Below, in pieces: positions 1 to 39,124 of a stretch of DNA of 64,000 nucleotides. Origin of the DNA: Bradyrhizobium septentrionale (lineage in GTDB: Bacteria > Pseudomonadota > Alphaproteobacteria > Rhizobiales > Xanthobacteraceae); NCBI RefSeq assembly GCF_011516645.4, contig NZ_CP088285.1, forward strand, positions 8,636,501 through 8,700,500, read 5' to 3'. A program made the translations under genes and the position numbers. The notes beneath the pieces were generated by a model that saw only the letters and a program-made list of their open reading frames with translations, had not been told where the DNA came from and searched no databases. The first letter of the stretch is position 1. The number at the start of each line of letters is the position of its first letter.

Positions 1-97
1 AGGAGCGCGCTCTTGCGCGCGTCTCGAAGGGTGCGCGGCCCGGCTGGTGGCCGTCGATCCTTCGAGACGCCGCTTCGCGGCTCCTCAGGATGACGGA
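1..97. repeat. Palindromic intergenic repeat, family B (copy 1, cut by the window edge)
   Basis: The outer arms are complementary: AGGAGCGCGC...CGTCTCGAAGG on the left pairs with CCTTCGAGACG...GCTCCT on the right. The same element, in the other orientation, lies at 5386-5482. It is non-coding and sits just downstream of the histidine kinase gene. Confidence 0.8.
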
Positions 98-120
98 GAT
101 GGAGCGCATTGCTCGATCCA

Positions 121-3073: not shown

Positions 3074-4045
3074 CTAGTCGGGCGGGATGCCGGCTTCCTT
3101 GACCACCCTGGCCCAGAGGGCGACATCCGCCTTGATGATGTCGGCGAAGCGCCCAAGCGGCGCGCTCGTGGCGTCGCAGCCGGCGACGTCGAGCTTCTGC
3201 CGCACCGCGGCGGAGGCCAGCGCCGTTTCCAGCGCCGCGCTGATGCGTTCGACCACCGGCTGCGGCGTGGCTGATGGCACCACAAAGCCGAACCACGGCG
3301 TCACCTGCGCCTCGGCATAGCCCTGCTCGGCCAAGGTCGGCACATCGGGGAAATATTTCGAGCGGCCGTCGCTGATCGCGCCGATGATCCGGATGCTGCC
3401 GGACTGCACCTGGGCCAGCGCCTGGTTGGCCGACAGGAAGCTCGAGGTGATCAGGCCGCTCGCGATGTCGGGCACCATCTGCGGATAGCCGCGATAGCCG
3501 ATCGCGGTGACGTCGATCCCGGCCAGCCGCTTGAACAGCTCGAAGCCGAGATGGCCGGTCGAGCCCTTACCGGGATGGCTGTAGTTCAGCGTGCCCGGCT
3601 TGGCCTTGGCGAGCGCGACGTAGTCGGCGACGGTTTTCACCGGCAGCGAGGCCGGCACGATGAAGAAGTTCGGCGCGAGGCAGATCTGGCCGATCGGCGC
3701 GAAGTCTTTCACCGGGTCCCAGCGCAGCTGGGTGCTGAGCGCCGGGCTGGCGGTGAAGAAGGTCGTCACCAACAGCCACGTGTAGCCGTCGGGCGCGGCG
3801 CGCGCGACCTCCTCAGCCGCGATCGAGCCGTTGGCGCCGGATTTGGCCTCGACGACGATCGTGCCCTTCCACTGCTCCTGCATGTCCTGTACGACGATGC
3901 GCGCGAACACGTCGGCGACGCTGCCCGGCGCATAGGGAAGCACGATGCGGATCGGCCGGCTCGGAAAATCCTGCGCGCGCGCCATGTCCGCCATCGCCAG
4001 CAACGCCAGGCACGCACCGGCAATGAGGCTGATCCGCCGCAGCAT
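3074..4045 (-). CDS. Tripartite tricarboxylate transporter (Bug family) substrate-binding protein
   Basis: A periplasmic solute receptor of the Bug/TctC family, 323 residues, the usual length. The N-terminus is a signal peptide (hydrophobic ACLALLAMADMARAQ), followed by the family opening FPSRPIRIVLPYAPG. The middle part (SHPGKGSTGHLGFELFK) and the region around DVPTLAEQGY are also typical. Such proteins bind small carboxylates in the periplasm and hand them to a TctAB membrane pair; no tctA or tctB lies nearby, so this is an orphan receptor, as is common for the family. The ligand cannot be read from the sequence. Confidence 0.93.
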   Translation of the reverse strand: MLRRISLIAGACLALLAMADMARAQDFPSRPIRIVLPYAPGSVADVFARIVVQDMQEQWKGTIVVEAKSGANGSIAAEEVARAAPDGYTWLLVTTFFTASPALSTQLRWDPVKDFAPIGQICLAPNFFIVPASLPVKTVADYVALAKAKPGTLNYSHPGKGSTGHLGFELFKRLAGIDVTAIGYRGYPQMVPDIASGLITSSFLSANQALAQVQSGSIRIIGAISDGRSKYFPDVPTLAEQGYAEAQVTPWFGFVVPSATPQPVVERISAALETALASAAVRQKLDVAGCDATSAPLGRFADIIKADVALWARVVKEAGIPPD

Positions 4046-4134
4046 CGTCCCGTTTCCGTAACCCGTGATCTCGTTGCGGGCAGGATGCAGGGATTGGCCC
4101 GCGGCAGCAAGGCGCGGGTTTCGGCTGACGAAAC

Positions 4135-4228
4135 TTCAGGCCGTGGCGATCCTTCGCACCGGAATCGTCATCGCGGCGATGACCTCAGGCGGTGGCGATT
4201 TTTCGCGCCGGAATCGTCATCGCGGCGA
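4135..4228. repeat. Imperfect tandem duplication (49 bp period) at the 3' end of the exporter gene
   Basis: Positions 4135-4179 and 4184-4228 are near-identical (GGAATCGTCATCGCGGCGA in both) with a 49 bp period and a few mismatches. The right copy encodes the last codons and stop of the exporter gene on the minus strand; the left copy lies beyond that stop and still carries an in-phase stop of its own. Confidence 0.8.
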
Positions 4229-5096
4229 CGCCGACCACGACACAGGCGAGCCCGATCCAGGCCGTCGCGCTCAGCCGCTCGCCCAGAAATGCGACGCTGA
4301 GCGCAACCCCGATCGGTACCCGCAGATAGGCCTGTGCGGTGGTGCCGACCGAGCCGAGGGTCTGGATCAGGCGGAAGTAGATCACGAAGGCGATCGCGGT
4401 CGAGAACACCGCAAGCGCCAGCAGAGCGAGCAGCGAGCTAGTCGAGGGCGACAGCGTCCACGGCCGCTCGACGGCGAGGCTGAGCGGCGTGAGGATCGCG
4501 GCACCCGCGATCAGCGAGCCCGCCGCCGGCGCCATCGGATCGAGCCCCTTGAAGCCGCGGCTGAAGATCGCGGCGCAGGCGTAGCAGATGGTGGCGGCGA
4601 CGATCGCGACCTCGGCCACGATCCCCGCGCCGAGATCGCGGAATGCATCGACGCCGACGATCAGGCAGATGCCGGCCATGCCGGCGATCACCCCGAACAG
4701 TTTGCGCGGGCTCGCCGCCTCATGGCGGGTGATCGCGGCGGTGAACAGGAAGGTGAAGATCGGCGAGGCCGAATTGAGGATGGTGGCGAGCCCGGCATCG
4801 ACGTAGCGCTCGCCCCAGGCGATCAGCGTCCACGGGATCACGCTGTTGAGGCAGGCCTGGAAGATGAAGCGGCGCCAGGTCGCGCCATCCCTCGGCATCG
4901 TCACGCCGCGCATCCGCATGATGACGAGCAGCAGCAGCCCTGCGATCGCCGTGCGCGCCGCGATCAGCGTGATCGGCGGGATGGTCGCAACGCCAAGCTT
5001 GATGAAGGTGTAGGAGCCGCCCCAGAGCGTGGCGAGCGCGAGCAGCAGGGCCAGCTCGAAGGCCATGCCGGGTTGGCTGGGCGTGGTGGCGGTCAT
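4185..5096 (-). CDS. EamA/DMT-family exporter
   Basis: A drug/metabolite transporter of 303 residues with about ten hydrophobic helices in two EamA repeats. The family opening LLALATLWGGSYTFIKLG is at the N-terminus, and the second repeat carries the typical FRLIQTLG...AYLRVPIGVALS region. Members export amino acids or small metabolites across the inner membrane; the substrate is not predictable here. It stands alone, with the binding protein gene downstream on the same strand (139 bp away) and a repeat-rich spacer upstream. Its last codons are tandemly duplicated beyond the stop. Confidence 0.9.
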   Translation of the reverse strand: MTATTPSQPGMAFELALLLALATLWGGSYTFIKLGVATIPPITLIAARTAIAGLLLLVIMRMRGVTMPRDGATWRRFIFQACLNSVIPWTLIAWGERYVDAGLATILNSASPIFTFLFTAAITRHEAASPRKLFGVIAGMAGICLIVGVDAFRDLGAGIVAEVAIVAATICYACAAIFSRGFKGLDPMAPAAGSLIAGAAILTPLSLAVERPWTLSPSTSSLLALLALAVFSTAIAFVIYFRLIQTLGSVGTTAQAYLRVPIGVALSVAFLGERLSATAWIGLACVVVGVAAMTIPARKIATA

Positions 5097-5200
5097 GGTG
5101 CCGATTCCGTCTCGTGAATTGAGACGGAGCCTAGATCGGCGCGAGGCGATGATACTTCGCTACAGGCCGAAATGTGGAGAAAGCGATTCTCTCTCCCGTC

Positions 5201-5322: not shown

Positions 5323-5385
5323 GTCGAATTTGTTGCGCCGCTCCTTCGTTACAGATCGAAGTGTGAAGATGCCGAACCGTCATCC

Positions 5386-5482
5386 TGAGGAGCCGCGCAG
5401 CGGCGTCTCGAAGGATGCACGGCCACAGTCGGGCCGTCGACCCTTCGAGACGCGCGCAAGAGCGCGCTCCTCAGGGTGACGG
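5386..5482. repeat. Palindromic intergenic repeat, family B (copy 2)
   Basis: This runs from CCGTCATCCTGAGGAGCCGC to GCTCCTCAGGGTGACGG and contains the pair CGTCTCGAAGG/CCTTCGAGACG. It is the inverted counterpart of the unit at 1-97 and abuts the stop of the NUDIX gene. Confidence 0.85.
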
Positions 5483-5484
5483 GA

Positions 5485-11712: not shown

Positions 11713-11730
11713 TACGCATCGTGGCTACGC

Positions 11731-14700
11731 CTACTCCGCCGCCATCTGCCGCGGCGCCGGCGGCGGGTTGGCGAGATCGGCGGCGAGTTGCGCGTAGCGA
11801 ACCTTCGCCTCGTTGATCGCCTTGTCCTTCACCGGGCCGTACCCGCGGATGCGGTCGGGCAGCGACAGCAATTCGACCGCGATGTCGTGATTGAGCGGCG
11901 ACAGCAGACCCAGCACCGTCGCGACATCCTTCTCGTAGCCTGCGATCAGATCGCGCTCGAGCTTGCGGTCGGCGTTGTAGCCGAAGACGTCGAGCGGCGT
12001 GCCGCGCAGGAAGCGGAACCGCGCCATCACCCTGAAGGCCGACATCATCCACGAACCGAACGCACGCTTCTTCGGACGGCCCTGCGCGTCGAGCCCGCCG
12101 CCGAGGATCGGCGGCGCGAGATTGAAGCTGAACTTGAACTCGCCTTCGAACTGGTCGCGCAGCTGCTTCTCGAAGCGGCCGTCGGTGAACAGCCGCGCCA
12201 CCTCGTACTCGTCCTTGTAGGCGAGCAGCTTGGCGTAGTTGATCGCGACCGCCCGCGGCAGCGCCTCGCCATAGCCGCCCTTGGTGGCGACGTCGCGCAC
12301 CTGGTCGACCAGCTTGCGATAACGCTTGGCGAGCCGCGCGTTCTGATAGTCGGTCAGCAACCCCATACGATGGGTGATGATCTCGTCGAGCGACATCGCA
12401 TCCAGCGTCTTCGGCGGCGCGGCCTCGTCCTCGCCTTTCATCATCCCGCTCAGCCGTGCCGGATCGGCCGCGGCCAGACGGCCAAGCTGGAACGCCTGCG
12501 TGTTCATCTTGATCGAGACGCCGTTGACCTCGATCGCCTGCTGGATCGCCTCCGCCGACAGCGGCAGCAGTCCGCGCTGATAGGCAAAGCCCATCATCAT
12601 GATGTTGGTGGCGATGCTATCGCCGAGCAGCGCCTCGGCCGGCTTGGTGAAGTCGAAGAAGGCGGAGTCCTTGCGCAGCTCGGTCTCCAGCACGCTGTTG
12701 ACCTTACGGCTCTGGAAGTTGAAGTCACGGTTGAGGATGAAATCCGCGGTCGGGATCACGTGGCTGTTGATGATGCCGACGGTGCGGCTCGCATCGCACA
12801 GCGTGATGGTGTCCTTGGAGGCCGCCACGACCTCGTCGGCGGCGAGCACCAGATCGGCGGTGCCGGTCACGATGCGCGAACAGGTCACATCAGCGGTGTG
12901 CTCGGAGAGCCGGACATGGCTCAGCACCGCGCCGCCCTTTTGCGCAAGGCCGGACATGTCGAGGATCATCGAGGCCTTGCCCTCGATGTGCGCGGCCATG
13001 CCGAGCAGCGCGCCGATGGTCAGGACGCCGGTGCCGCCGACGCCGCCGACCGCGATGTTGTAGGGACGGTCGAGCGCGGGCTTCGATGCCGGCTCCGGCA
13101 GATTGTCGATGCTGCCGAGATCGGGCGGCGCGCGACGCCTGAGCTTGCCGCCGTCGACCGTGACGAAGGACGGGCAAAAGCCCTTCACGCAGGAATAGTC
13201 CTTGTTGCAGGTCGACTGGTTGATGGTGCGCTTACGCCCGAGCTCGGTCTCCAGCGGCTCGACCGAGATGCAGTTCGACTGCACCGAGCAGTCGCCGCAG
13301 CCTTCGCAGACCGCGGGATTGATCAGCACGCGGCGCTGCGGATCCTCCATCAGGCCACGCTTGCGGCGACGGCGCTTCTCGGCGGCGCAGGTCTGCACGA
13401 ACACGATCGCCGAGGTGCCCTTGGTGTCGCGGCACATCTTTTGGACGTTTTCGAGCTCGTCGCGATGGAACAGCTTGACGCCGGGCGCGATCGTATCGGC
13501 CGGATAGGCGTCGGGAGTTTCCGAGACCAGATAGATCTCGCGAATGCCTTCGGCGTGGAGCTGGAAGGTGATCTGCTGCGGCGAGAGATCGCCGTCGTGA
13601 CGCTGGCCGCCGGTCATCGCGACCGCGTCATTGTACAGGATCTTGTAGGTGATGTTGGCCTTGGAGGCGATCGACTGGCGGATCGCGAGGATGCCGGAGT
13701 GGAAATAGGTGCCATCGCCGAGATTGGCGAAGATGTGGTTCTCGTTGGTGAACGGCGCGATGCCGACCCACGGCACGCCCTCGCCGCCCATATGGGTGAA
13801 GGTCTCGGTCGAGCGGTTCATCCACAGCGCCATGAAGTGGCAGCCGATGCCGGCCAGTGCGCGGCTTCCTTCGGGCACCTTGGTCGAGGTGTTGTGCGGG
13901 CAGCCCGAGCAGAAATACGGTGTGCGGGTGACCGGTGCGGTCGCCTGCATCTGGGTCGACTGGCGGCCGTTGAACCAGTCGGCCTTGGCGCGGAGCATCT
14001 CGGCGATTTCGGGATTGAGATTAAGTCGAAGCAGCCGTTCGGTGAGCGAGCTCGCAAGCGAAGCCACGCTGAGCTCGGCGGCGAAGGTCAGGAAGCGCTT
14101 GTCGTGATCGTCCATCTTGCCGACGATGCGCGGGCGGACGTCGTCGCGCCAGTTGAACAGCTCCTGCTTGACCTGGTTCTCGACGATCTCGCGGCGCTCC
14201 TCGACGATGAAGATCTCCTCGAGGCCGACGGCGAAGTTGCGCACGCCTTCCGGCTCCAGCGGCCACGGCATGCCGATCTTGTAGAGCCGAAGGCCGATCT
14301 TGGCGGCGATCTCGGGCGTGATGCCGAGCTCGCGCAGCGCCTGGCGGATATCCTCATAGCTCTTGCCCGAGGCCATGATGCCGTAGCGCGCGTTCGGCGA
14401 ATCCATGGTGATGCGGTTGACCCTGTTGGCGCGGGCAAAGGCGATCGCGGCAAAGCCCTTGTAGTCCTGCAGCCTGCGGTCCTGCTCGAAACGGTCGTCG
14501 GGCCAGCGGATGTTCAGGCCGCCGGGCGGCAGCTCGAAGTCCGTCGGAATGACGAACGGCGTCATCTCGTCGGTCAGGTCGATCTCGGCGGTGGTCTCGA
14601 CCGTCTCGGTGATCACCTTCATGCCGACCCAGCAGCCCGAGTAACGCGACATCGCGATACCCAGGAGGCCCATCTCGATCATTTCATGGATGCTGGAGGG

Positions 14701-28981: not shown

Positions 28982-29112
28982 GAGGAGACCTGAACAGTTC
29001 GGGTTGACGACGATGCTGATGCCATCGTGGTAAAACGATGGCAATCGGACTTGCTTGTTTGACGCATTTTCTTCACGCGAACCGGTGCCCACTTCGCTCG
29101 AAAACGCTATCG

Positions 29113-29376
29113 CTATCGCACCCGGCCCGACAGCCGCAGCACGAACACCAAGACCTCCGCGACGGCCTTGTAGAGCTCGGCCGGGATCTCGTCGCCGAGC
29201 TCGACGTTGGAGAGCGCGCCGGCCAAAACCTCGTTCTCCTCGATCGGGATATCGTTGGCTTTGGCGACCTCGATGATCTTGGCGCCAATCGCGCCCTTGC
29301 CTTTGGCCACCACGCGCGGCGCGCCGGAATGGTCGTAATGCAGGGCGACCGCGAGCTGGCTGTTCGCGTCGCTCAT
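29113..29376 (-). CDS. FlhB-like C-terminal domain protein (FlhX type)
   Basis: An 87-residue free-standing homologue of the cytosolic tail of the flagellar export switch FlhB. It reads AVALHYDHSGAPRVVAKGKG and then IIEVAKANDIPIEENEVLAG, typical of the FlhB C-terminal domain after the cleavage site. The NPTH autocleavage motif itself is absent (the position before AVALHYD is SQL), so this resembles the mature FlhB-CC fragment. It overlaps the FliK-like gene by 4 bases (ATGA), so the two are translated together. FlhB tails and FliK interact in setting export specificity. Confidence 0.92.
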   Translation of the reverse strand: MSDANSQLAVALHYDHSGAPRVVAKGKGAIGAKIIEVAKANDIPIEENEVLAGALSNVELGDEIPAELYKAVAEVLVFVLRLSGRVR

Positions 29377-30965
29377 GATGCGCGGTCCAGGAAGTGGCCG
29401 GCGCGCGCGGGCGCAGGTTGCGGCGGGCTGCCGTCGCGGATCTCGATGTCGCCGGGTGTGAGCTCGGCCCTGCTCAGTGCCTGGCTGAGCTCGGATGCGC
29501 CGGCGCGCAGCTGCGCGGCGGTCGAGGGACGCTCGGCCCACATCCGCACCGAGGTGCGCTCGCCGTTCAACGAGACCAGCGCGTGCACCGGGCCGGCCGG
29601 CTCGACGTCGAGCGTGAAGCGCGCCCGCCATACCCGCTTGGCGGCCTCGACCTCATTGCCGCCGCCGTCGTGGGAAATCTCGAACTGCGCCATCGCCGTG
29701 CCCTGCTGGGTCAGGAACGGGATCTCGAAATTCCAGCGCGGCACCATCGCGTCGAGCTGCGGACGCTGGCCATCGCCGCGATCCGGCAGCGAGGCGACCT
29801 GGAGCAGCGTCTGCCGCGCCAGTGCCGCGTCGGTGTTTTCCAGGAGGCGATGCGCGGCGGCAGCAATCGGCGTGCCCGGCGCGATCGACGGCTCGGCCAC
29901 GGCCTGCGCCGACGGCAGCGCGCCGTGAAACGGCGGTGGCGGCGTGTTACTGCGTGCGGACACTTCGCCCGGCAGCATCTCCCTTGGCGCGGCGGCCTGC
30001 CGTGCCGGGTTGCCGAGCTCGTGCAGCGCTTCCTGAATGAGATTGAGCGTGCCGCCCGCCGACGGCCCGGCATCGAGCGCATCCGCGAGAACCCCGGCGA
30101 GCCCAGTGGCGCCGCGGCTGAGATCGTCGGCAACCGGCACGCGGGCCTGCGGCAGCAGGATTTCCTGAACGTCGAGGTCGCCCGTTGGCGCCGGCACGAT
30201 GCTCGGCGCCGTGCCGGCATTGGCAAGCGTCGGTTGCTGGAGTGGCGTGGATGCAGGCTTGGCGGTGTCGCCGGCACCAAGCGACGTCAGCGCCTGGCGC
30301 AGCACGATCAGCGCGGCCTTCAGATCGGGCGCGCTGCCGCTCGCGGGCGCAACGCCCGAGGCAAGCGTCGCCTCGAACAACAGGCCGGATTTCTGGAAGC
30401 CGGTCTTGACGGCATCGCCGCTCAGATTCTCGTCGAGGCCGGTCTGCTGCGCCAGCACCTGTGCGATCGCGGCCTGAAGCTTTGGCGGCAGATTGGCCGA
30501 GGCGACCGCCGCGAGATTGGCAAATAGCGGCGCCTGGCTGCCCTGCACCGCCGCCGCGTTCTGGGCCGTTGCGGTGATGGTGACGCGCTCGAGCGGCGTC
30601 AGCACCGCCTTCGGCGCCGTGGCGACGGGCTGCGACGCGGCGCTGACGTCGGCCGCCCCCTGGGCATGCGGCGACAGCTGCACCGCATCGCCGGCGTCGG
30701 CGCCCGGCCCGACCAGTTGCAGGCGGACGCTGCCGTCACTGGTCTGCGACACCGCAAGCTGCAAATTCTGGCCCTGCTGCAGCGGCACCTCGGTCTGGAC
30801 GTCGATCGACAGGCTCGCGATCGCGATCCGCACCAGATCGGCCGACAGCACCTTCAAGACCTGCGCGTTGACGACGCTGCCCGCCTCGAGCGTGAGGTCT
30901 GGCGCAACACTGCCCGCCTCGTTCGAGGCAAGCACCGGCAGCACGGGATTGATCGCAAGTGCCAT
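29373..30965 (-). CDS. FliK-like flagellar hook-length control protein
   Basis: A 530-residue protein with a low-complexity Ala/Gln/Pro-rich N-terminal two thirds and a C-terminal hook-length control domain (about residues 420-510: TAMAQFEISHDGGG, then RVWRARFTLDVEPAGPVHAL and ERTSVRMWAERPSTAAQLR). In flagellar systems FliK measures the hook and triggers the FlhB switch. It is coupled by an ATGA overlap to the FlhB-tail gene, and both are away from any flagellar cluster in this window. It could serve the second flagellar system or a related export system. Confidence 0.88.
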   Translation of the reverse strand: MALAINPVLPVLASNEAGSVAPDLTLEAGSVVNAQVLKVLSADLVRIAIASLSIDVQTEVPLQQGQNLQLAVSQTSDGSVRLQLVGPGADAGDAVQLSPHAQGAADVSAASQPVATAPKAVLTPLERVTITATAQNAAAVQGSQAPLFANLAAVASANLPPKLQAAIAQVLAQQTGLDENLSGDAVKTGFQKSGLLFEATLASGVAPASGSAPDLKAALIVLRQALTSLGAGDTAKPASTPLQQPTLANAGTAPSIVPAPTGDLDVQEILLPQARVPVADDLSRGATGLAGVLADALDAGPSAGGTLNLIQEALHELGNPARQAAAPREMLPGEVSARSNTPPPPFHGALPSAQAVAEPSIAPGTPIAAAAHRLLENTDAALARQTLLQVASLPDRGDGQRPQLDAMVPRWNFEIPFLTQQGTAMAQFEISHDGGGNEVEAAKRVWRARFTLDVEPAGPVHALVSLNGERTSVRMWAERPSTAAQLRAGASELSQALSRAELTPGDIEIRDGSPPQPAPARAGHFLDRAS

Positions 30966-31029
30966 GTCGAAGGTTTCGGCCAGGCGCGAGGGACGTGCCG
31001 CAGGCTAGCCCGGCGCCGTAAACCCCTCG

Positions 31030-31815
31030 TTAACCGGCGGCCGGCTTGAGCTCCCTCAGGACGCCGGCGGCGGCCTTGAAATCGACCTGCCGGGCGGTGC
31101 GGCGGACGGCGACCTCCTCGTCGACGCCCCATTTCTCGATGTTCCAGTCCTCGTCGACATGGGCGGCGGCCCAGATCTGGTCCTCGTCGCAGACACCATG
31201 CATCAAGGCCAGCGCCAGCAGCGCCGAGCCGGTCAGCGTCGTCACCACATGGAGCGCCGCGACCGACCATGGATCGGCCGGGAACGCCGCGCGCGCCGCC
31301 TTGATCGCGGGCTCGGGCTGGCCGACATGCATCACCCCCTCGGCCATCACGAAATGGGCGCCGAGCGCATCGGCGGCCCAGAACAGGATCGGGTCCCAAT
31401 GCCGGGCCTCGCGCGCCACCAGGGAATCGGGATGGCCGGCGCGATAGAACAGCAGGTCGCTGCCGAGGAATTTTGCGGCGTCGTCGGCGACCTCGTCGAC
31501 GCGATCGATCACCCCCTCGATCACGCTGTTGGCTAGCCGCGTCAGCGGCATGGTCATGGGATCGATGGTCTCGCCCTGCGCATTCCATTCCGCCGCGACC
31601 GCGTCCGCAAGGGCGCGCGTCGGCACCACGATCGGCTTGCCGGACGGCGAGCGGATCTGCTTGCCATCGAGCGTGATCGCAAATCCGCCACTGGCGTCAG
31701 TGACGCCGGCGCCGGTGTAGAAGCGCTTGCGCCGGGGCGTGCGGATGTGGCGCCGCACCGCCTCCTGCGGATCGAGCGGGGATTGTTCGGCGGGTTCGTC
31801 AAACAGTTCGCGCAT
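31030..31815 (-). CDS. ATP12-family F1-ATPase assembly chaperone
   Basis: A 261-residue homologue of mitochondrial ATP12, which binds F1 alpha subunit during ATP synthase assembly; alphaproteobacteria keep it. Features include RFYTGAGVTDASGGFAITLD, GKQIRSPSGKPIVVPTRALA and AVAAEWNAQGETIDPMTMPL, and the C-terminal ALALMHG...HVDEDWNIEKWG. The ATG at 31815 (MRELFDEPAEQ) is chosen over the TTG at 31854, because the upstream codons fall inside the diverged duplicate described for 31818-31952. Confidence 0.94.
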   Translation of the reverse strand: MRELFDEPAEQSPLDPQEAVRRHIRTPRRKRFYTGAGVTDASGGFAITLDGKQIRSPSGKPIVVPTRALADAVAAEWNAQGETIDPMTMPLTRLANSVIEGVIDRVDEVADDAAKFLGSDLLFYRAGHPDSLVAREARHWDPILFWAADALGAHFVMAEGVMHVGQPEPAIKAARAAFPADPWSVAALHVVTTLTGSALLALALMHGVCDEDQIWAAAHVDEDWNIEKWGVDEEVAVRRTARQVDFKAAAGVLRELKPAAG

Positions 31816-31817
31816 CG

Positions 31818-31952
31818 CGCCGGCCAGCTTTCGTTCAGATGGATTTGCCCGCAAGATATGTCAGGGACAACGGCAAATAAAGCTGATGCGACGCGTCAAA
31901 TTTCGCCCGTCTCGGCGGTTTTCGAAGCCGCCACCGCCGATCCCGGGTTCCG
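31818..31952. repeat. Left diverged direct repeat bracketing the CorA/ZIP islet (broken 5' copy of the 34649 gene)
   Basis: This aligns with 34581-34728: CTTTCGTTC, GCAAGATATGTCAGGG, CGGCAAATAAAGCTGATG, GACG-GTCAA and finally GGGTTCCG occur in the same order in both. The ATG at 31886 matches the true start at 34649, but this copy has lost about 13 bp and shifts frame, so it no longer encodes the signal peptide. It is therefore a remnant of the same 5' region. Confidence 0.85.
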
Positions 31953-32002
31953 TTGACCGGCCCGTCCGATGACCCCGGATTGTCTGGCAGAAGCGAACGT
32001 GG

Positions 32003-33061
32003 CTAAAGCCAGCCATCACGCTTGAAACGCGCATAGAGCAGAGCGCAGGTGCCGAGGATACCGGCCAGCACATAGTAGTAGCCGTATTCCCACTTCAGCT
32101 CCGGCATGTGCTCGAAGTTCATGCCGTAGATGCCGGCAATCGCCGTCGGCACGGCGAGGATCGCGGCCCATGCCGCCAGCCTGCGGGTGATCGCCGTCTG
32201 TTGCGCCTGTCCGGCCATCATGCTGGCTTCGAACACGAAGGCCAGAATTTCGCGGAGCGAATCGATATCCTCTTCGGCCCGCTTGGCATGATCGAGCACG
32301 TCGCGGAACAGCGGCTTCATTTCCTTGTCCATCGCGATCAGATCGGCATGCTCAAGCCGTTTGCAGACATTGACCACCGGACCGACCGCGCGCCGCAGAC
32401 TGAGCAGATCCCGCCGCAACCTGTACAAGCGGTCGAATTCCCGCCGGACCAGCGACCTCTGCAGTACTTCCTTTTCGAGCTCTTCTGCCTCGGTCTGCAC
32501 GCTTTCGATAACGGGTCCGTAATTGTCGACGATGAAGTCCAGGATGGCGTAGAGGATGTAGTCCTCGCCCTGCGAAAGCGAAGCCGGACATGACTCGCAG
32601 CGAGCCCGAACAGCCTTGTAAGAACTCGATGCGCCATGCCGCACCGAGACGACGTAGCCGGTTCCGAGAAAGATATGCGTCTCGCCGAATGCGATCTCGT
32701 CATCGACGATTTGCGCGGTGCGCGCCACCACGAACAACGCGTCGTCGTACTGCTCGACCTTTGGCTGCTGATGTGCAGTGGAGGCGTCTTCGATCGCCAG
32801 GGGGTGCAGGTCCAGCTGCGCGGCAACGCGCTCGAGCAGCGCCTTGTCAGGCTCATGCAACCCGATCCAGACCACATGGCCGGATTTCTTCGACCACTCG
32901 CCGGCTTCCTCGATCGAAATATCGGAAACGCGTCGCCCGCTGACATAGACGCTCGCTGCGACCACGCCTGGCTCGCTCGGCGAGAGGCGCTCCGGCGCGG
33001 AATTGACTTCGACAGGTCGTAGGCGAGCCCGCTGTCTCAAGACTGTCGCTCCCTGCACCAT
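32003..33061 (-). CDS. corA: CorA-family magnesium/cobalt transporter
   Basis: A 352-residue pentameric divalent-cation channel. The cytoplasmic funnel domain comes first (VVWIGLHEPDKALLERVA, then HPLAIEDASTAHQQPKVEQY), then the long stalk helices, and two C-terminal membrane helices with the selectivity motif YGMNFEHMPEL between them. It ends with the positively charged cap KRDGWL. It is divergent from the ZIP-like transporter, the two sharing a spacer of about 160 bp, and both lie within a segment bracketed by imperfect direct repeats. Confidence 0.95.
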   Translation of the reverse strand: MVQGATVLRQRARLRPVEVNSAPERLSPSEPGVVAASVYVSGRRVSDISIEEAGEWSKKSGHVVWIGLHEPDKALLERVAAQLDLHPLAIEDASTAHQQPKVEQYDDALFVVARTAQIVDDEIAFGETHIFLGTGYVVSVRHGASSSYKAVRARCESCPASLSQGEDYILYAILDFIVDNYGPVIESVQTEAEELEKEVLQRSLVRREFDRLYRLRRDLLSLRRAVGPVVNVCKRLEHADLIAMDKEMKPLFRDVLDHAKRAEEDIDSLREILAFVFEASMMAGQAQQTAITRRLAAWAAILAVPTAIAGIYGMNFEHMPELKWEYGYYYVLAGILGTCALLYARFKRDGWL

Positions 33062-33219
33062 TGAACTGCTGCAGACAAACGTCCGCGCCGCAGGTCTCGT
33101 TCCAGATGCATCAGATATGGTCGCCCCGCAACCTGAATTCTACAGGCTCCTATATCATGCCTATACGGACCCCGGCCGATTCATATCGATTTCCTATAAG
33201 CAGGCTCGATACGGTGCCG

Positions 33220-34470
33220 ATGAGAGCATTCTCGGGACCGATGACCGGATTTGTTGACATCGCCGCCGTGGCCTTCGTCGGCTTCGTCACGACATCATCG
33301 ACGATGTTCGGCGCGCTCCTCGGCCTGTGGGTGCGGATTCCCAAGAGCGTGCTGGCGGCGCTGCTGGCTTTCGCGGCGGGGTCGCTGATCTGCGCGCTCG
33401 CCATCGAGCTTGCATTTGAGAGCGTGCTAGCCCTCCAGCATCAGCAATTCGGCCGGATGCAGGCCTGGCAATTTGTCGGCGGCGGCTTCGCGTTGGGCGC
33501 CGCGATCTACTATTGCGGCGCGATGTTCCTCGAGCAGCGTGGCGCCGCGGTCCGTCTGCCGACCCGCTTTTACGAATTCGCCGTCAATCAGAAGCGCAAG
33601 AGCTCGCAAGAGTTGATCGGACTGCTCAGCAAATCCGATCTGATGCGCCATCTTCCGCCGGAGCGCATCGAAGCGTTGCTGCCGTACATTGAAGTACGGA
33701 CCTTGAACGCAGGCGACGACCTGTTTCGCGCGGGCGACAAGGGCGATGCGCTCTACATCGTCAAGCATGGCAACGTCGCCGTGTTGCCGGATCGCGGCGA
33801 GAACACCTCGTCGGCGGAAAAGCCGATCGCTCAGCTTTCGGAAGGCCAGATCCTGGGGGAGATGGCGCTTCTGACGGGCAATCCACGCAGCGCCACGATC
33901 CGCGCCACGATAACGACCGAGTTGCTGCGGATCGGCAAGGACGATTTCGAGCGGCTGATCCACGAAGATCGTGACCTGGAAGCCGCCGTCAGGCGCCTCA
34001 GTCACGAACGGGCCATCAGCAACCTCAGCTCCAGCGGGGTCAATCCCGCGACCTGGGCCGCGATCGCCGCCAGCAACGTCCATCACCTCACCCGGCGCGA
34101 GTCGGACACGTTGCTGGTCAAGGCCGGCCATGGCGCGGGATTGGCGATCGTGCTGGGCAACATCCTGGACACGATCCCGGGCTGCCTTGTGATCGGGGCC
34201 AAGTTCGATGGAATGCAGACGCTGTCGCTCAGCCTCATCCTCGGCATGTTCATCGGCGGCATTCCGGAGGCGGCCGCCAGCGCCGCGATACTTCGCAAAG
34301 CAGGGTATAGCGCAGGGACGGTGCTGCTGCTGTGGTCGACCGTTATGGTCGCCGGCATCGTCTCGGCGGTGGCCGGGCATGACCTGATCGGCAACTCCCC
34401 GTCGCTGGTTTCGACCTTCTTGCAGGCGGTCGCCGGCGGGGCGTGCTTGCCCTCGTCGCGCACGCCATGA
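33220..34470 (+). CDS. ZIP-like metal transporter with a cyclic-nucleotide-binding domain in the central loop (3' frameshift)
   Basis: Three N-terminal membrane helices (AFVGFVTTSSTMFGALLGLW; SVLAALLAFAAGSLICALAI; VGGGFALGAAIYYCGAMFLE) precede a complete cNMP-binding domain of about 125 residues. Its phosphate-binding cassette reads LGEMALLTGNPRSATIRA with the key Glu and Arg. ZIP-type helices follow (NILDTIPGCLVIG; GMFIGGIPEAAASA). The domain sits where ZIP proteins have their variable TM3-TM4 loop. After TFLQAVAGGA the frame is lost: adding one G after 34443 would continue VLALVAHAMIPEAIHQGG to a stop at 34569-34571, restoring the last helices. As read the protein ends early at CLPSSRTP. 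The ATG at 33220 or 33241 is the likely start. Function: cNMP-gated metal uptake or efflux (inference). Confidence 0.82.
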   Translation: MRAFSGPMTGFVDIAAVAFVGFVTTSSTMFGALLGLWVRIPKSVLAALLAFAAGSLICALAIELAFESVLALQHQQFGRMQAWQFVGGGFALGAAIYYCGAMFLEQRGAAVRLPTRFYEFAVNQKRKSSQELIGLLSKSDLMRHLPPERIEALLPYIEVRTLNAGDDLFRAGDKGDALYIVKHGNVAVLPDRGENTSSAEKPIAQLSEGQILGEMALLTGNPRSATIRATITTELLRIGKDDFERLIHEDRDLEAAVRRLSHERAISNLSSSGVNPATWAAIAASNVHHLTRRESDTLLVKAGHGAGLAIVLGNILDTIPGCLVIGAKFDGMQTLSLSLILGMFIGGIPEAAASAAILRKAGYSAGTVLLLWSTVMVAGIVSAVAGHDLIGNSPSLVSTFLQAVAGGACLPSSRTP

Positions 34471-34580
34471 TTCCGGAAGCGATCCATCAGGGTGGATCGG
34501 TCATCGTGCTGCCGACGGTCGGAGGCTTCCTGTTTGCGTTGTATTTTGCGCTTTCGAGTGCGCCGCTGTAGCCAGCATTA

Positions 34581-34728
34581 CGCCGGCAGGCTTTCGTTCG
34601 GGAGGATTTCCCTGCAAGATATGTCAGGGTCACCGGCAAATAAAGCTGATGGGACGGGTCAATATCCTCGCGGGTTTTTCGCTCGTTGCGGTGGCCTTCG
34701 GAGCCGCCGGCGCCGAGGCCGGGTTCCG
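34581..34728. repeat. Right direct repeat bracketing the CorA/ZIP islet
   Basis: The counterpart of 31818-31952. It covers the promoter-proximal sequence and the first 80 bases of the 34649 gene, which is intact here, so this copy is likely the original and the left one the decayed duplicate. Confidence 0.82.
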
Positions 34729-35104
34729 CACGCCGGAATCGCTGATCCGCAACGTCTACGCCCATTATGGACGAGGCAGCGCGGCGTTTTCCAACGGCCT
34801 GCCGCGCGACGAGGAAACCGCCCGGCAATTCTTCGATTCCCCGCTGCGCGCCGCCTGGACCGCCCTGCACGACGCACCCTACGATTTCCTGGTGCAGAGC
34901 CCGAGCTGGCGGATCGGCCCGATCTCGATCGCGATCCTGCGCAGGCAGTTCGACCGCACCGATGCGACCGTGACGTTCGACAATGAGGGCCGTGCGGTCA
35001 CGCTCAACTTCATCGTCGTCAACGGTCCCGACGGCTGGGTGATCTCTGATGTCGAGAGCCCGCACGATTCGTTATGTCTGTTTCTGACGCAGTTCAGGCG
35101 CTAG
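34649..35104 (+). CDS. Exported hypothetical protein (DUF3828-like)
   Basis: A 151-residue protein with a signal peptide (LAGFSLVAVAFGAAGAEA) followed by a small alpha+beta domain: RTPESLIRNVYAHYG, the hydrophobic-aromatic middle DAPYDFLVQSPSWRIGPISI, and TVTFDNEGRAVTLNFIVVNG. The arrangement resembles DUF3828 periplasmic proteins. Its 5' end and upstream region are duplicated in decayed form at 31818-31952. It is followed 58 bp later by the IclR regulator on the same strand. Confidence 0.75.
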   Translation: MGRVNILAGFSLVAVAFGAAGAEAGFRTPESLIRNVYAHYGRGSAAFSNGLPRDEETARQFFDSPLRAAWTALHDAPYDFLVQSPSWRIGPISIAILRRQFDRTDATVTFDNEGRAVTLNFIVVNGPDGWVISDVESPHDSLCLFLTQFRR

Positions 35105-35121
35105 GCAAGTGTCAGTGTTGC

Positions 35122-35134
35122 TGTAGAATCTATA
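35122..35134 (+). promoter_or_regulatory. Candidate IclR operator upstream of the regulator
   Basis: TGTAGAATCTATAG contains the near-palindrome TAGAATCTA. Its reverse complement core (ATAGATTCT) recurs at 35949-35957, ahead of the enzyme/symporter genes, suggesting a shared site. Confidence 0.35.
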
Positions 35135-35162
35135 GGGCGACATCGACGCAGAGGGATGGATC

Positions 35163-35972
35163 GTGGCCAACGAACCTGACAGTTCCAACGACGGGCCGCT
35201 GGATCGGGCCATCGCGATCCTGGTCTTCGTTGCCGAACAGAAGAAGGCGTTGTCGGCTGCCGAGATCGCCGCCGCGCTTTCCCTTCCACTTCCGACGGCG
35301 CATCGGCTGATCGGCAATCTCGAAACCCGAGGCCTGATCCAGAAGGCGCTCGGGACCAAGCGCTACGTGGTCGGAAGCAAGCTGGTGACGCTGGCCGCCA
35401 AGACGATCGGCGCAGCGTTCCGCACCGTGCGCCGGCACGCCGTGCTGAGTGCGGTGGCCGACCGCATCGGCGAACAGTGCGAGATCGGCGTCGTCCGCGA
35501 CAACGTCGTGGTCTATGTCGACAGCGTTCGCTCCAAGCAACAGCAGGCGTTGCAGTTCAATCCGGGCGAAGCGGCTCCGCTCCACTGCACGTCGACGGGC
35601 AAGATCTACATGAGCCGGCTGCCCGCGAAGGTCCGCGAGCGGCTGGTCAAATCGCTCCCCCTCGTCCGCTACACGCCGACGACGATTGCCGATCCCGACG
35701 CGTTGTTGGCTTTGCTCGACGAGACACGGCGCAGAGGCTGGGCGAAGACCAACGAGGAATTCGTGCAGGGCGTTGTGGGTTGCGCTGTGCCGATCGTCTC
35801 GCCGGCCGGCGATCTCATCGCATGCCTGGGCGTTTCAGTGCCTGCCGCGCGGGTCGGCTTCGCGGGGCTCGATGCCTTCATCGCCCCATTGCAGGAGGCG
35901 GCAGCGCTGCTGTCCGAAACGATCCTACAGGATTACGAAGAAGATCTCATAGATTCTCATTTTTCGGAATAA
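35163..35972 (+). CDS. IclR-family transcriptional regulator
   Basis: A 269-residue regulator: N-terminal winged helix (AAEIAAALSLPLPTAHRLIG, then NLETRGLIQKA) and a C-terminal effector domain (AAPLHCTSTGKIYMSRLP, FVQGVVGCAVPIVSPAGDLI). It starts at GTG (35163) with GAGGGA 9 bases upstream. IclR proteins usually sense a small acid and regulate the adjacent catabolic or transport genes; here a class V aminotransferase-fold enzyme and a dicarboxylate/amino acid symporter follow on the same strand. Confidence 0.93.
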   Translation: MANEPDSSNDGPLDRAIAILVFVAEQKKALSAAEIAAALSLPLPTAHRLIGNLETRGLIQKALGTKRYVVGSKLVTLAAKTIGAAFRTVRRHAVLSAVADRIGEQCEIGVVRDNVVVYVDSVRSKQQQALQFNPGEAAPLHCTSTGKIYMSRLPAKVRERLVKSLPLVRYTPTTIADPDALLALLDETRRRGWAKTNEEFVQGVVGCAVPIVSPAGDLIACLGVSVPAARVGFAGLDAFIAPLQEAAALLSETILQDYEEDLIDSHFSE

Positions 35973-35990
35973 TTACTCTCATTTTTTGAA
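35945..35990 (+). promoter_or_regulatory. TCTCAT iterated motif at the end of the IclR gene and start of the next promoter
   Basis: TCTCAT occurs at 35945, 35955 and 35977, the last two extended to TCTCATTTTT-GAAT, in an AT-rich stretch between the regulator and the enzyme gene. The first two overlap ATAGATTCT, the reverse complement of the motif upstream of the regulator. It is a candidate operator/promoter region for the downstream genes. Confidence 0.35.
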
Positions 35991-36179
35991 TCGAAACTCG
36001 ATCTCGCGCAAATCCTGTGTATCCTCTGGGCAGATGATTGAGCTGACCACGATTGAGGCAGCTCTCTCCAAGTCTGCATCAAGGCCACTTCGCCACCACC
36101 AGAACTGATCGCCGCCGCCGGCCATCCGGCGGAGCGTTTTGCCGTGCCGAAAGCCTATGCCCGAGCCACCGGAGTGATC

Positions 36180-37361
36180 ATGCGCCAGCACTACGACGTA
36201 TCAGCCGTCCGCAAGGCCTTTCCGGCTGCCGAGCACGTGGTTTATCTCGACAGCGGTTTTCAGACGCCGCTCTCCCGGCCGGTGAAGGAGGCCTATGAAC
36301 GCTTTCTCTGGGAAGGCTTCGAGAATGCTGGCCCGAAGCGGATCTGGCTCAATCGCCTCGAAGAGACCCGCGCGAAAGTTGCTGATTTCCTCGGGGTCGA
36401 GCCACACGAGATCGCGTTCACCAAGAACACGTCCGAGAGCATGAACATCGCCGCCAACGCGCTGCCGCTTCGTGCCGGCGACAAGGTTCTGATGATCCAC
36501 GGCGATCATCCCAACAACGCCTACGCCTTCCTCAATCTGCGAAAGAAGGGCGTTGAGATCGTCTTCATCCCCATGACCGACGTCGTCGATGCGGAGAGCT
36601 TCCGGCCGCATATCGACGACAGGACGCGCGCGATCTCGATGTCGCACGTCACATTTCACGCAGGTCATCGCTTCGATGTGGAGAGCGTGGGCGAACTCTG
36701 CGCGCAGCATTCGCTCTACTTTGTCGTGGACGTGATGCAGGGCATCGGCGTGGTGCCGATCGACGCCAAGGCCATGAAGGCCACATTCATCGGCTCCGGC
36801 ACGCACAAGGGTCTGCTCGTGCCGCAAGGGCTCGGCCTGCTCTACTGGGACTCGACGCGGACCGAGCTGGAGCCGGCCTATCTCGCGGCGGCAAGCCTCG
36901 CCGAACCGCCGCTCGACTTCATCGCCCGGCCGGACAACATGGCCCTGCCCACGACTGCGGGCCGCTTCGAGCTCGGCAACTACAACCTTCCCGCAATCCA
37001 AGCCTTGGGCGCGGCGATCGACCTCATCAACCAGGTCGGGATCGAGAAGATCCAGCAACATTGTTTCGACGTCGGCGATTACCTGATCGAAGGTCTCGAT
37101 CGGCTCGATGTCGGTCTGGTCGGCCCGCGCGAGCGGCAGCACCGCGCGCCGCACATCTATGTCATCGCCTTGCCGACTGCCGAATGGCTGGATTACTTCA
37201 CCCAGAACGGCATCCGCGTCTCGCCGGAGCGCGACGGCATCCGCGTGTCGCTCGGCATGTTCAACACCACTGAAGACATCGACCGCCTCATCGAGGCGAT
37301 CCGCGCCCGCAACGCGCCAGCAAGCCAGGCCCGTACGGCGGTTCTGTCAAAGCTCGGTTAG
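36180..37361 (+). CDS. Class V aminotransferase-fold PLP enzyme
   Basis: A 393-residue PLP enzyme of the cysteine desulfurase/isopenicillin N epimerase group. VVYLDSGFQTPLSRPV opens the fold, EIAFTKNTSESMNIAANALP is the cofactor phosphate region, FVVDVMQGIGVVPID contains the ring-binding aspartate, and the Schiff-base lysine is in GSGTHKGLLVPQGLG. The active cysteine of desulfurases is not evident, so an epimerase, lyase or transaminase reaction is more likely. Two starts compete: GTG at 36144 and ATG at 36180 (GGAG 8 bases upstream, preferred). It lies between IclR and a symporter, probably as a catabolic unit. Confidence 0.88.
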   Translation: MRQHYDVSAVRKAFPAAEHVVYLDSGFQTPLSRPVKEAYERFLWEGFENAGPKRIWLNRLEETRAKVADFLGVEPHEIAFTKNTSESMNIAANALPLRAGDKVLMIHGDHPNNAYAFLNLRKKGVEIVFIPMTDVVDAESFRPHIDDRTRAISMSHVTFHAGHRFDVESVGELCAQHSLYFVVDVMQGIGVVPIDAKAMKATFIGSGTHKGLLVPQGLGLLYWDSTRTELEPAYLAAASLAEPPLDFIARPDNMALPTTAGRFELGNYNLPAIQALGAAIDLINQVGIEKIQQHCFDVGDYLIEGLDRLDVGLVGPRERQHRAPHIYVIALPTAEWLDYFTQNGIRVSPERDGIRVSLGMFNTTEDIDRLIEAIRARNAPASQARTAVLSKLG

Positions 37362-37460
37362 CCGGACCGGCTCTCCGCTCAATCAAGCAGCCCTCCGAGA
37401 CGCCGGAACGGCGCGCCACAGCTCGGATGCCGCAACTCTCCGGTGGCGAAGGATCACGTC

Positions 37461-38759
37461 ATGCAGCCAGGCAGCAGAGTCCAGACCCCGAACAGGCTGA
37501 CCACGTACATCATGGTGAGCCTGTTTCTCGGCATCGCCGTCGGTTACGCGTGCAACGTTGTCGCGAGCCCGGAACAGGCCAAGGCGATCGCCGGCTATTT
37601 CGCGATCGTGTCGGACATCTTCCTGCGCATGATCAAGATGATCATCGCGCCACTGGTGTTCGCCACCATCGTCTCCGGGATTTCCAGCCTCGGCGCCAGC
37701 GGCGGCGCGGTGGGACGCATCGCCGTCAAATCGCTGGCCTGGTTCATCACCGCCTCGGTGCTGTCGCTGTCGGTCGGGCTCGTGCTCGCGAACCTGCTCC
37801 AACCGGGACACGGTCTCGGTCTCGCGCTGCCCGATGCGAATGCCACGGCCAATGTCCAGACCAGCAGCCTGAACATCAAGGATTTCGCCGCCCACGTCTT
37901 CCCGATCAGCGTCGTCCAGGCGATGGCCGGCAACGAGGTGCTGCAAATCCTCGTGTTCTCGATGTTCTTCGGCTTTGCGCTGAGTGCGGTCAAAGGCACG
38001 CTTGCCCCTGATATCGCGCGGTCGATCGATCAGATCGTCCCAGTGATGCTGAAGTTCACCGACTATGTCATGCGCTTTGCGCCGGTTGGCGTGTTCGCGG
38101 CCATGGCCGCGGTCATCACCACGCAGGGGCTCGGCGTCCTCGTCACCTATGGAAAGTTCGTCAGCGCCTTCTACTTCGGATTGGTGGTGCTCTGGGCGAT
38201 CATCATCGGCGCGGGCAGCGTCGTGCTCGGCGGGTCGATCAAGGAGCTGCTGCGGCTGCTCCGGCAACCGATGATGATCGCCTTCTCGACGTCCAGCAGC
38301 GAGGCGGCCTTCCCGAAGATGATCGAGCAGTTGATGAAGTTCGGCGTATCGGAGCGGATCACCGGCTTCGTCCTGCCGCTCGGGTATTCGTTCAATCTCG
38401 ACGGTTCGATGATGTACCAGACCTTCGCCGCCCTGTTCGTCGCACAGGCTTTCAATATCGAGATGCCGCTCACGACCCAGATCGCGATGCTGCTGCTCCT
38501 GATGATCACCAGCAAGGGCATCGCCGGCGTGCCGCGCGCGTCGCTTGTCGTTGCCGCCGCCACCCTCCCGACCTTCGGCCTGCCGGCAGGCGGCCTCGTC
38601 CTGCTGATCGGGATCGACGCCTTCCTGGACATGGGACGGACGATGACCAACGTCATCGGAAACGGCGTTGCAACCGCCGTCGTTGCAAAATGGGAGAACG
38701 AACTGGGCGAGCCCGTCGAGCAAGACGCCAACTTCCTGTCGACGGCCGCCGCGGGGTAG
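37461..38759 (+). CDS. Dicarboxylate/amino acid:cation symporter (DAACS family)
   Basis: A 432-residue member of the GltP/DctA family that takes up C4-dicarboxylates or acidic amino acids with protons or sodium. Hallmarks: STSSSEAAFPKM (re-entrant loop HP1), GYSFNLDGSMMYQTFAALF (TM7), ITSKGIAGVPRASLVVAAAT (HP2) and DAFLDMGRTMTNVIGNGVAT (TM8). The ATG at 37461 is preferred over GTG at 37443. It follows the class V enzyme by about 100 bp, so it likely imports that enzyme's substrate (inference). A hairpin lies 27 bp after the stop. Confidence 0.92.
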   Translation: MQPGSRVQTPNRLTTYIMVSLFLGIAVGYACNVVASPEQAKAIAGYFAIVSDIFLRMIKMIIAPLVFATIVSGISSLGASGGAVGRIAVKSLAWFITASVLSLSVGLVLANLLQPGHGLGLALPDANATANVQTSSLNIKDFAAHVFPISVVQAMAGNEVLQILVFSMFFGFALSAVKGTLAPDIARSIDQIVPVMLKFTDYVMRFAPVGVFAAMAAVITTQGLGVLVTYGKFVSAFYFGLVVLWAIIIGAGSVVLGGSIKELLRLLRQPMMIAFSTSSSEAAFPKMIEQLMKFGVSERITGFVLPLGYSFNLDGSMMYQTFAALFVAQAFNIEMPLTTQIAMLLLLMITSKGIAGVPRASLVVAAATLPTFGLPAGGLVLLIGIDAFLDMGRTMTNVIGNGVATAVVAKWENELGEPVEQDANFLSTAAAG

Positions 38760-38785
38760 CGCGAGACTGCGCCTTCGGAACCACG

Positions 38786-38812
38786 CGGCGGTTTGCTGGA
38801 ACCAAACCGCCG
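38786..38812 (+). terminator. Hairpin after the symporter gene
   Basis: CGGCGGTTTG, loop CTGGAAC, CAAACCGCCG: a perfect 10 bp stem 27 bp after the stop, without a T-run. It is probably a transcript-end structure. The rest of the spacer up to 39124 shows no gene that I can support. Confidence 0.5.
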
Positions 38813-39124
38813 TCGGCACGACGGCACATGACAGAATCCGCGACGACGAAAAAATATCTGACGGCTGCCGGCGCGTCGCGCTTTCTCCGCAATTGCGTCG
38901 GCGAATGGTCCATCCGATTGATCGCTCAGCAAGTTTGAACATCCTGCTCGCGTTCTGCGTCGAAGTGCCGCAAGAAGCTGTCATCTGCGTGTTAAAAACC
39001 TGCCAGATTTCGGCAACAACGCGCGGCTAGCCTTCCGATACCAAACAGAAGCATTTGTCGACCATTGCGGTCGCAAGACGTGGACTGACGTCACGCATGG
39101 CGTCGGTTGCGCGTTTGCGCGCCT

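Follow-up and report, generated by a model that had tools for sequence, protein, structure and literature searches.

Small genomic segments that vary between relatives have been surveyed in three species, in which 10-18% of the segments were flanked (PMC2884548) by direct repeats and 66-94% of these repeats were shorter than 30 bp. Here we analyse a locus of Bradyrhizobium septentrionale that lies in a stretch of 64,000 nucleotides (the window, to which positions refer unless stated otherwise). In this locus corA and a gene for a ZIP-type transporter with an inserted cyclic-nucleotide-binding (cNMP) domain, ZIP-cNMP, are placed between two copies of a direct repeat, the left one adjoining the gene atp12 and the right one running into the gene g34649. 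The locus thus resembles the small variable segments in its presence or absence between relatives and in the direct repeats at its edges. Our results indicate, with a probability that we put at about 0.8, that in the lineage of this genome corA and ZIP-cNMP were inserted between atp12 and g34649, and that the upstream regions of both neighbours were retained.

A prediction made earlier from the sequence alone (the original prediction) held that imperfect direct repeats bracket corA and ZIP-cNMP. The two copies (LEFT and RIGHT; Table 1) are a genuine direct repeat, in agreement with this: they align with a score of 82, versus 17 for the best among 3,000 random pieces of the window, and both genes sit between them. 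Positions 31812-31899 of LEFT match 34575-34662 of RIGHT without gaps at 85% identity over 88 nt, and 31901-31952 match 34677-34728 at 79% identity over 52 nt, the two blocks sharing one register save for 13 bases that are absent from LEFT. A search of the own 10.4-Mb genome with LEFT retrieved, besides LEFT, only RIGHT (E 7.5e-26; of the 99 first-look candidates 40 were scored). Some details of the prediction need amendment. The repeat is real within the limits it gave, 31818-31952 and 34581-34728, and has the fuller extent listed in Table 1; LEFT is decayed as claimed, through one 13-bp deletion plus substitutions and not through several small deletions; and one of the two bracketed genes, ZIP-cNMP, is itself broken by a frameshift.

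Two sets of loci were used to study the corresponding place in relatives. A scan of genomes with the g34649 protein yielded 33 loci (protein-scan set). A DNA search of 265 genomes of the genus, the own one included, found the stretch of RIGHT plus g34649 in 175 of them, and the loci of the 29 best relatives were read (DNA-search set). These sets overlap: 42 repeat sequences were aligned (18 + 24), of which 17 were identical between the sets, leaving 25. In all 33 protein-scan loci atp12 adjoins g34649 divergently and corA and ZIP are absent, and the same two genes are neighbours without the corA-ZIP pair in 29 of the 29 loci read. The full-length repeat is present, at one place each, in 18 of the 33 loci (L003-L019 and L035); the more distant ones have the same gene order without a full-length match to the repeat, and empty sites of this sort extend to loci whose g34649 relative has 60-70% identity. 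When the repeat core was searched as a pattern, with 3 mismatches allowed, 31 of the 265 genomes gave matches, single in 30 relatives and double in the own genome only, while the reversed control pattern had no match in the 265. Four of the 30 carriers (L316-L319) fall outside the 29 loci read and have the core beside atp12, again without corA or ZIP; next to their core no g34649 relative was found. The repeat was also considered as a mobile repeat, a candidate that was rejected: RIGHT is the only further copy in the own genome, and none of the 30 other carriers has the repeat at a second place.

Comparison of relatives therefore favours insertion of the pair, and this reading is well supported. 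The original prediction had likewise proposed that the two-gene unit entered next to g34649, and had named empty sites in related Bradyrhizobium as the test. The empty site was found in all loci examined that have both genes. Neither of the observations that the prediction named as refuting was made: corA or ZIP occurs at this place in none of the loci examined, and LEFT aligns far above chance. The opposite polarity, in which the ancestor already had the filled site and recombination between the repeats removed the pair from the relatives, is very improbable. Loss between flanking repeats is a known route of variation for small variable segments (PMC2884548), but it would have had to occur in all loci examined, the most distant included, and the right half of LEFT looks like coding sequence that has decayed.

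The extent of the duplicated target was delineated by comparison with empty sites. Against 17 relatives of the protein-scan set, the RIGHT block starts at 34575 in all 17, and the LEFT block extends to 31952-31960 in 15 of them, the other two stopping at 31895 and 31898. When four relatives were compared across the whole window, the flanking blocks overlapped in the relative by 162 bp in each case, which replaces the earlier estimate of about 140 bp of duplicated target. The atp12 start codon (31815-31813) is at the left end of LEFT, and the duplicated stretch runs from there to about codon 27-29 of g34649, taking in the entire space between the two start codons. Each neighbour thus kept its full upstream region, which is probably why the outcome survived. 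A consensus promoter scan of 31700-34900 gave one site, versus 0.6 expected, and this site lies outside the repeats, so that promoter activity of the repeats is something that we only infer.

Table 1. Features of the locus, with positions in the window
Feature	Positions	Strand	Basis or remark
atp12 (ATP12 chaperone), left neighbour	31030..31815	-	Pfam ATP12, E 2.2e-35; orthologue beside g34649 in 33/33 loci
LEFT repeat copy	31812..31960		atp12 upstream region and decayed first g34649 codons; 13 bp missing
Inserted stretch, 2614 bp	31961..34574		not at this place in relatives examined
corA, CorA-type Mg/Co transporter	32003..33061	-	TIGR00383, Pfam CorA
ZIP-cNMP, ZIP transporter gene with inserted cNMP domain, frameshifted	33214..34568	+	tblastn of the homologue P0001, cNMP Pfam match, fold of P0001
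RIGHT repeat copy	34575..34736		g34649 upstream region and first codons, starting at the former atp12 start codon
g34649, 151-aa protein, right neighbour	34649..35104	+	signal peptide by eye

The protein encoded by g34649 has no Pfam match; its relatives carry the source labels hypothetical protein or DUF3828, and a 97% match is found in the close strain Bradyrhizobium sp. 27S5.

An overlap of this length was then set against others in the region. Comparison of 464 kb of the own chromosome with genome G239 gave 41 gaps of at least 300 bp, of which 20 were clean (13 with the additional DNA in the own genome and 7 in G239). The 162-bp overlap is the largest among these 20. It is followed by overlaps of 47 bp, at an insertion of 15 kb, of 19 bp, and of 17 bp, at an insertion of 119 kb. 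The 119-kb stretch (G000:C2:8452145-8571540), which is absent from G239 and ends to the left of the window at a distance of about 65 kb, resembles an integrated island. When five genomes were compared over the region in all ten pairs, 63 clean indels were obtained, which are not independent, and overlaps of at least 80 bp appeared at three places: 162 bp in the window, 81-83 bp in G036 and 90-110 bp in G238. In the relative G036 a 573-bp insertion lies between two copies of an 83-base stretch that are identical at 79 of 83 positions (L149-L153 joined, the counterpart of window 11721-11811). This stretch begins at the stop codon of a neighbouring gene, covers the last codons of that gene, and is single-copy in G238, G239 and G092. 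The G238 overlap was rejected as a target duplication, being a palindromic dispersed repeat that also occurs in the window. Copies of this repeat, of about 110 bp, are found at window positions 17-98 and 5377-5483, and it likewise borders a 1.3-kb indel in G238.

Long duplications of unique sequence are thus rare, but the case in the window is not alone, and such scars may recur, G036 being the second case. The duplications in the window and in G036 each have one edge at the start or stop codon of a gene, a coincidence that may be due to chance. It is conceivable, if rather doubtful, that the two are products of a general insertion route in Bradyrhizobium which works without mobile-element genes, leaves about 80-160 bp of target on both sides and has an edge at a start or stop codon. 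No precedent for a target duplication of 160 bp was found in the literature, as far as the parts of abstracts considered extend.

What is observed is the insert, its absence from the relatives examined and the 162 bp of target that flank it on both sides. In the course of events that we favour, the corA-ZIP pair would have entered the short space between the divergent genes atp12 and g34649 on the branch that leads to this Bradyrhizobium. LEFT would have gone on serving atp12 and RIGHT g34649, while the parts of the repeat that were no longer needed decayed, the g34649 codons of LEFT losing 13 bases and the ZIP gene breaking as well. As to the joining itself, foreign DNA may have been taken into a staggered break with long single-stranded ends that were filled in, by end joining or by polymerase template switching. 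We propose such an illegitimate, repair-type insertion tentatively, at somewhat less than even odds; it ranks ahead of a repeat copy brought in by the donor DNA and, further down, of an eroded integrative element, both considered below. Five Ku matches above the cut-off are present at four places of the own genome, so that end joining is possible. At one of these places, G000:C2:2897488-2898037, two adjacent partial Ku matches are possibly one broken ku gene. End joining reportedly takes part in the acquisition of heterologous DNA.

The insert contains no transposase or integrase, as the original prediction had noted: its frames and Pfam matches are those of corA and ZIP-cNMP only. Its ends are not inverted repeats, the outer 100 bases scoring 8 where random pairs have a median of 9 and a 95% point of 12, and none of the 25 repeat pairs listed, out of 49, joins the two ends. 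No tRNA was found in 29000-39000 and no Rfam family in 31000-35500. These data bear on the possibility that the locus is the relic of an integrative element that carried a look-alike of the region upstream of g34649, entered there as at an attachment site by means of a site-specific recombinase, and later lost all but its cargo. Integrative elements typically show direct repeats of which the element-borne copy is diverged, and the insertions of 119 and 15 kb nearby have overlaps of their own. Such a relic is nevertheless unlikely here, given that recombinase gene and tRNA are lacking and that the repeat core has no other place in the 265 genomes. Furthermore, carriage by a phage was rejected: none of the 107 viral contigs containing the 16-base core matched the repeat (E 1e-4) or the seven proteins (E 1e-6), and a scan of viral contigs, sensitive to close relatives only, found no relative of ZIP. 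Carriage by a plasmid was rejected as well: 283 plasmid records match ZIP, none over 80% of its length, and the 15 of these 283 that were listed cover 41-54%, around the cNMP domain.

Several points weigh against the course of events that we favour. The steps of the mechanism are inferred, none having been observed directly, and target duplications of this length are not known to us from any bacterial transposition. In addition, LEFT and RIGHT are as unlike as copies from different species: they have 11 differences at 77 noncoding positions and 18 at the remaining 72, which exceeds the divergence of 260 and of 239, respectively, out of 300 pairs of relatives. A late duplication of one allele should leave private states shared by the two copies, and no state was found in LEFT and RIGHT alone among the aligned relatives. 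LEFT has seven private states and RIGHT four; two two-way states link RIGHT to L018 (B. tropiciagri SZCCT0338), two link LEFT to L007 (B. pachyrhizi) and one links LEFT to L017. A difference of this kind would not be expected from a recent simple duplication of one allele. Approximately unbiased (AU) tests, which had little power, rejected neither LEFT and RIGHT as sisters (p 0.325 for the whole repeat, 0.0515 for the first 78 columns) nor a sister relation of RIGHT to L018 (p 0.204).

Either the event is old and took place near the base of the species' branch, or the copies have different parents, or flanks were later exchanged with empty-site alleles. Exchange is made plausible by conflict between the flank trees; for instance, the partner of L012 is L015 in one tree and L083 in the second. 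The own genome is unplaced in the left-flank tree, which has two misfit rows (L006 and L087, their flank being interrupted by other DNA), and groups with L015 (95/87) in the right-flank tree.

Different parents would follow if the incoming DNA had brought its own copy of the repeat, that is, if corA-ZIP had come attached to the DNA upstream of a g34649 homologue of some other Bradyrhizobium. Entry could then have been homologous on one side and illegitimate on the other, or a circle could have integrated via one crossover in the repeat. This alternative competes with the illegitimate-insertion step only and not with insertion itself, and we regard it as possible, though less probable than that step. 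It would account for the look of LEFT and RIGHT as alleles of different species, and homology-facilitated illegitimate recombination is described for transformable bacteria (PMC2884548). Against it, no second place of the repeat core exists in any of the 30 other carrier genomes, and the repeat is absent from 15 kb around ZIP in the six other carriers of the genus and from 16 kb around ZIP in two other carriers of the order. Later exchange of each flank with empty-site alleles, moreover, would give the same pattern.

The cargo was characterised through intact homologues. The frameshift in ZIP-cNMP is at about 34443-34449 and the open frame ends at 34470; tblastn of the intact homologue P0001 (96% identity, on a metagenome contig) gave a match split between two frames, frame 1 over window 33214-34449 and frame 3 over 34443-34568. 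The window frame matches Pfam cNMP_binding (72.3 bits, cut-off 27.5) and P0001 matches Pfam Zip (47.6 bits, cut-off 35.1), whereas the truncated frame of the window gave no Zip match at E 0.001. P0001 has a ZIP fold with the cNMP domain after helix 3 (about residues 116-271). A second aligner matched this fold to BbZIP, while the 50 Foldseek matches listed are cNMP proteins, and, among the sequence matches to solved structures, the 60 listed of 208 and of 251 all concern the cNMP part. N316, D319 and E352 are conserved and, as matched by eye, may be residues of the binuclear metal centre. The protein differs from BbZIP, a prokaryotic ZIP transporter, in having the cNMP-binding domain between helices 3 and 4, and in a Gly at the position of BbZIP His177 (matched by eye). 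No description of a ZIP fold with a cNMP domain in the loop after helix 3 appeared among the papers listed by literature searches for it. ZIP-cNMP orthologues are present in 7 of the 265 genus genomes, the own included (E 1e-113 or better; the next match has 4e-15), and, at E 1e-50, in the own and two others of a sample of 397 genomes of the order. This rarity fits horizontal entry.

CorA matches TIGR00383 at 202.6 bits, above the cut-off of 200.75, as well as Pfam CorA. The insert DNA finds matches in 260 of the 265 genus genomes, mostly at corA and with up to 79% identity, and the corA-ZIP pair is absent from the best 29 corA-matching loci of the genus. In G089, one of the six other ZIP carriers, corA is beside ZIP in a different orientation and with 63% identity, and the ZIP copy contains stop codons. 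A ZIP homologue (87%, P0002) and a corA homologue (91%, P0255) are both listed with a 15,818-bp ENA contig; the equal sizes point to one contig, and the pair therefore probably existed as a unit before the insertion. Base composition is not decisive for origin, G+C being 60-66% in windows of the insert, 65-73% in the left flank and 59-66% in the right flank. A 98% identical corA is found in another, close strain, Bradyrhizobium sp. 6(2017), which speaks against an assembly artefact. The filled site is known from one genome only and the ZIP frameshift could be a sequencing error, but both junctions are inside a 9.8-Mb contig and LEFT and RIGHT differ at many sites, so that an artefact is the least probable of all explanations.

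Other variable DNA was observed around this site. In L133 (genome G150) the repeat region that separates atp12 from g34649 has about 108 extra bases, at about 3909-4016. To the left of atp12, Bradyrhizobium acaciae (L006) has an insert of about 1.5 kb, at about 3622-5153, with a membrane-protein-like frame that we take to be PAP2-like, and no direct repeat longer than 22 bp flanks this insert. To the right of g34649, window 35105-38811 encodes an IclR regulator, a class V aminotransferase and a further transporter-like frame; many relatives lack this block, L010, L014, L016 and L018 have it, and its edges show no long overlap.

When bacteria gain genes, this is often ascribed to illegitimate recombination that leaves no readable scar. 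The scar described here is unusually legible: the empty site is found in many relatives, the target is duplicated over a long stretch, and the location of one edge at a start codon suggests why the event was tolerated. If a general route of the kind considered above exists, it would let small gene cargoes enter between neighbours without damaging either. Wider importance depends on the existence of more cases like those of the window and G036; the shorter scar of G036 makes a systematic count worthwhile, and more cases could permit dating of the route and its assignment to a pathway of repair. The cargo is of some interest in itself, being a ZIP-fold transporter whose loop after helix 3 contains a cyclic-nucleotide domain.

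Among known systems, insertion sequences and transposons are alike in the direct duplication of target on both sides and unlike in that this locus is without transposase or terminal inverted repeats; their target duplications usually fall in a range about ten times shorter than 162 bp. Integrative elements with att repeats share the direct repeats at both ends, and the recombinase gene and tRNA that go with them are absent here. Homology-facilitated illegitimate recombination would insert foreign DNA without a mobile element, using homology on one side; it is described for naturally transformable species (PMC2884548), and no genome was found with the repeat beside corA-ZIP. The small variable segments, or microdiversity loci, of the same survey (PMC2884548) likewise vary in presence and absence, mostly lack mobile-element genes and are in some cases flanked by repeats. 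Those repeats mostly measure less than 30 bp, whereas the one described here comprises 162 bp of target including a whole intergenic region, so that the locus is of a known kind and its repeat of an unusual length.

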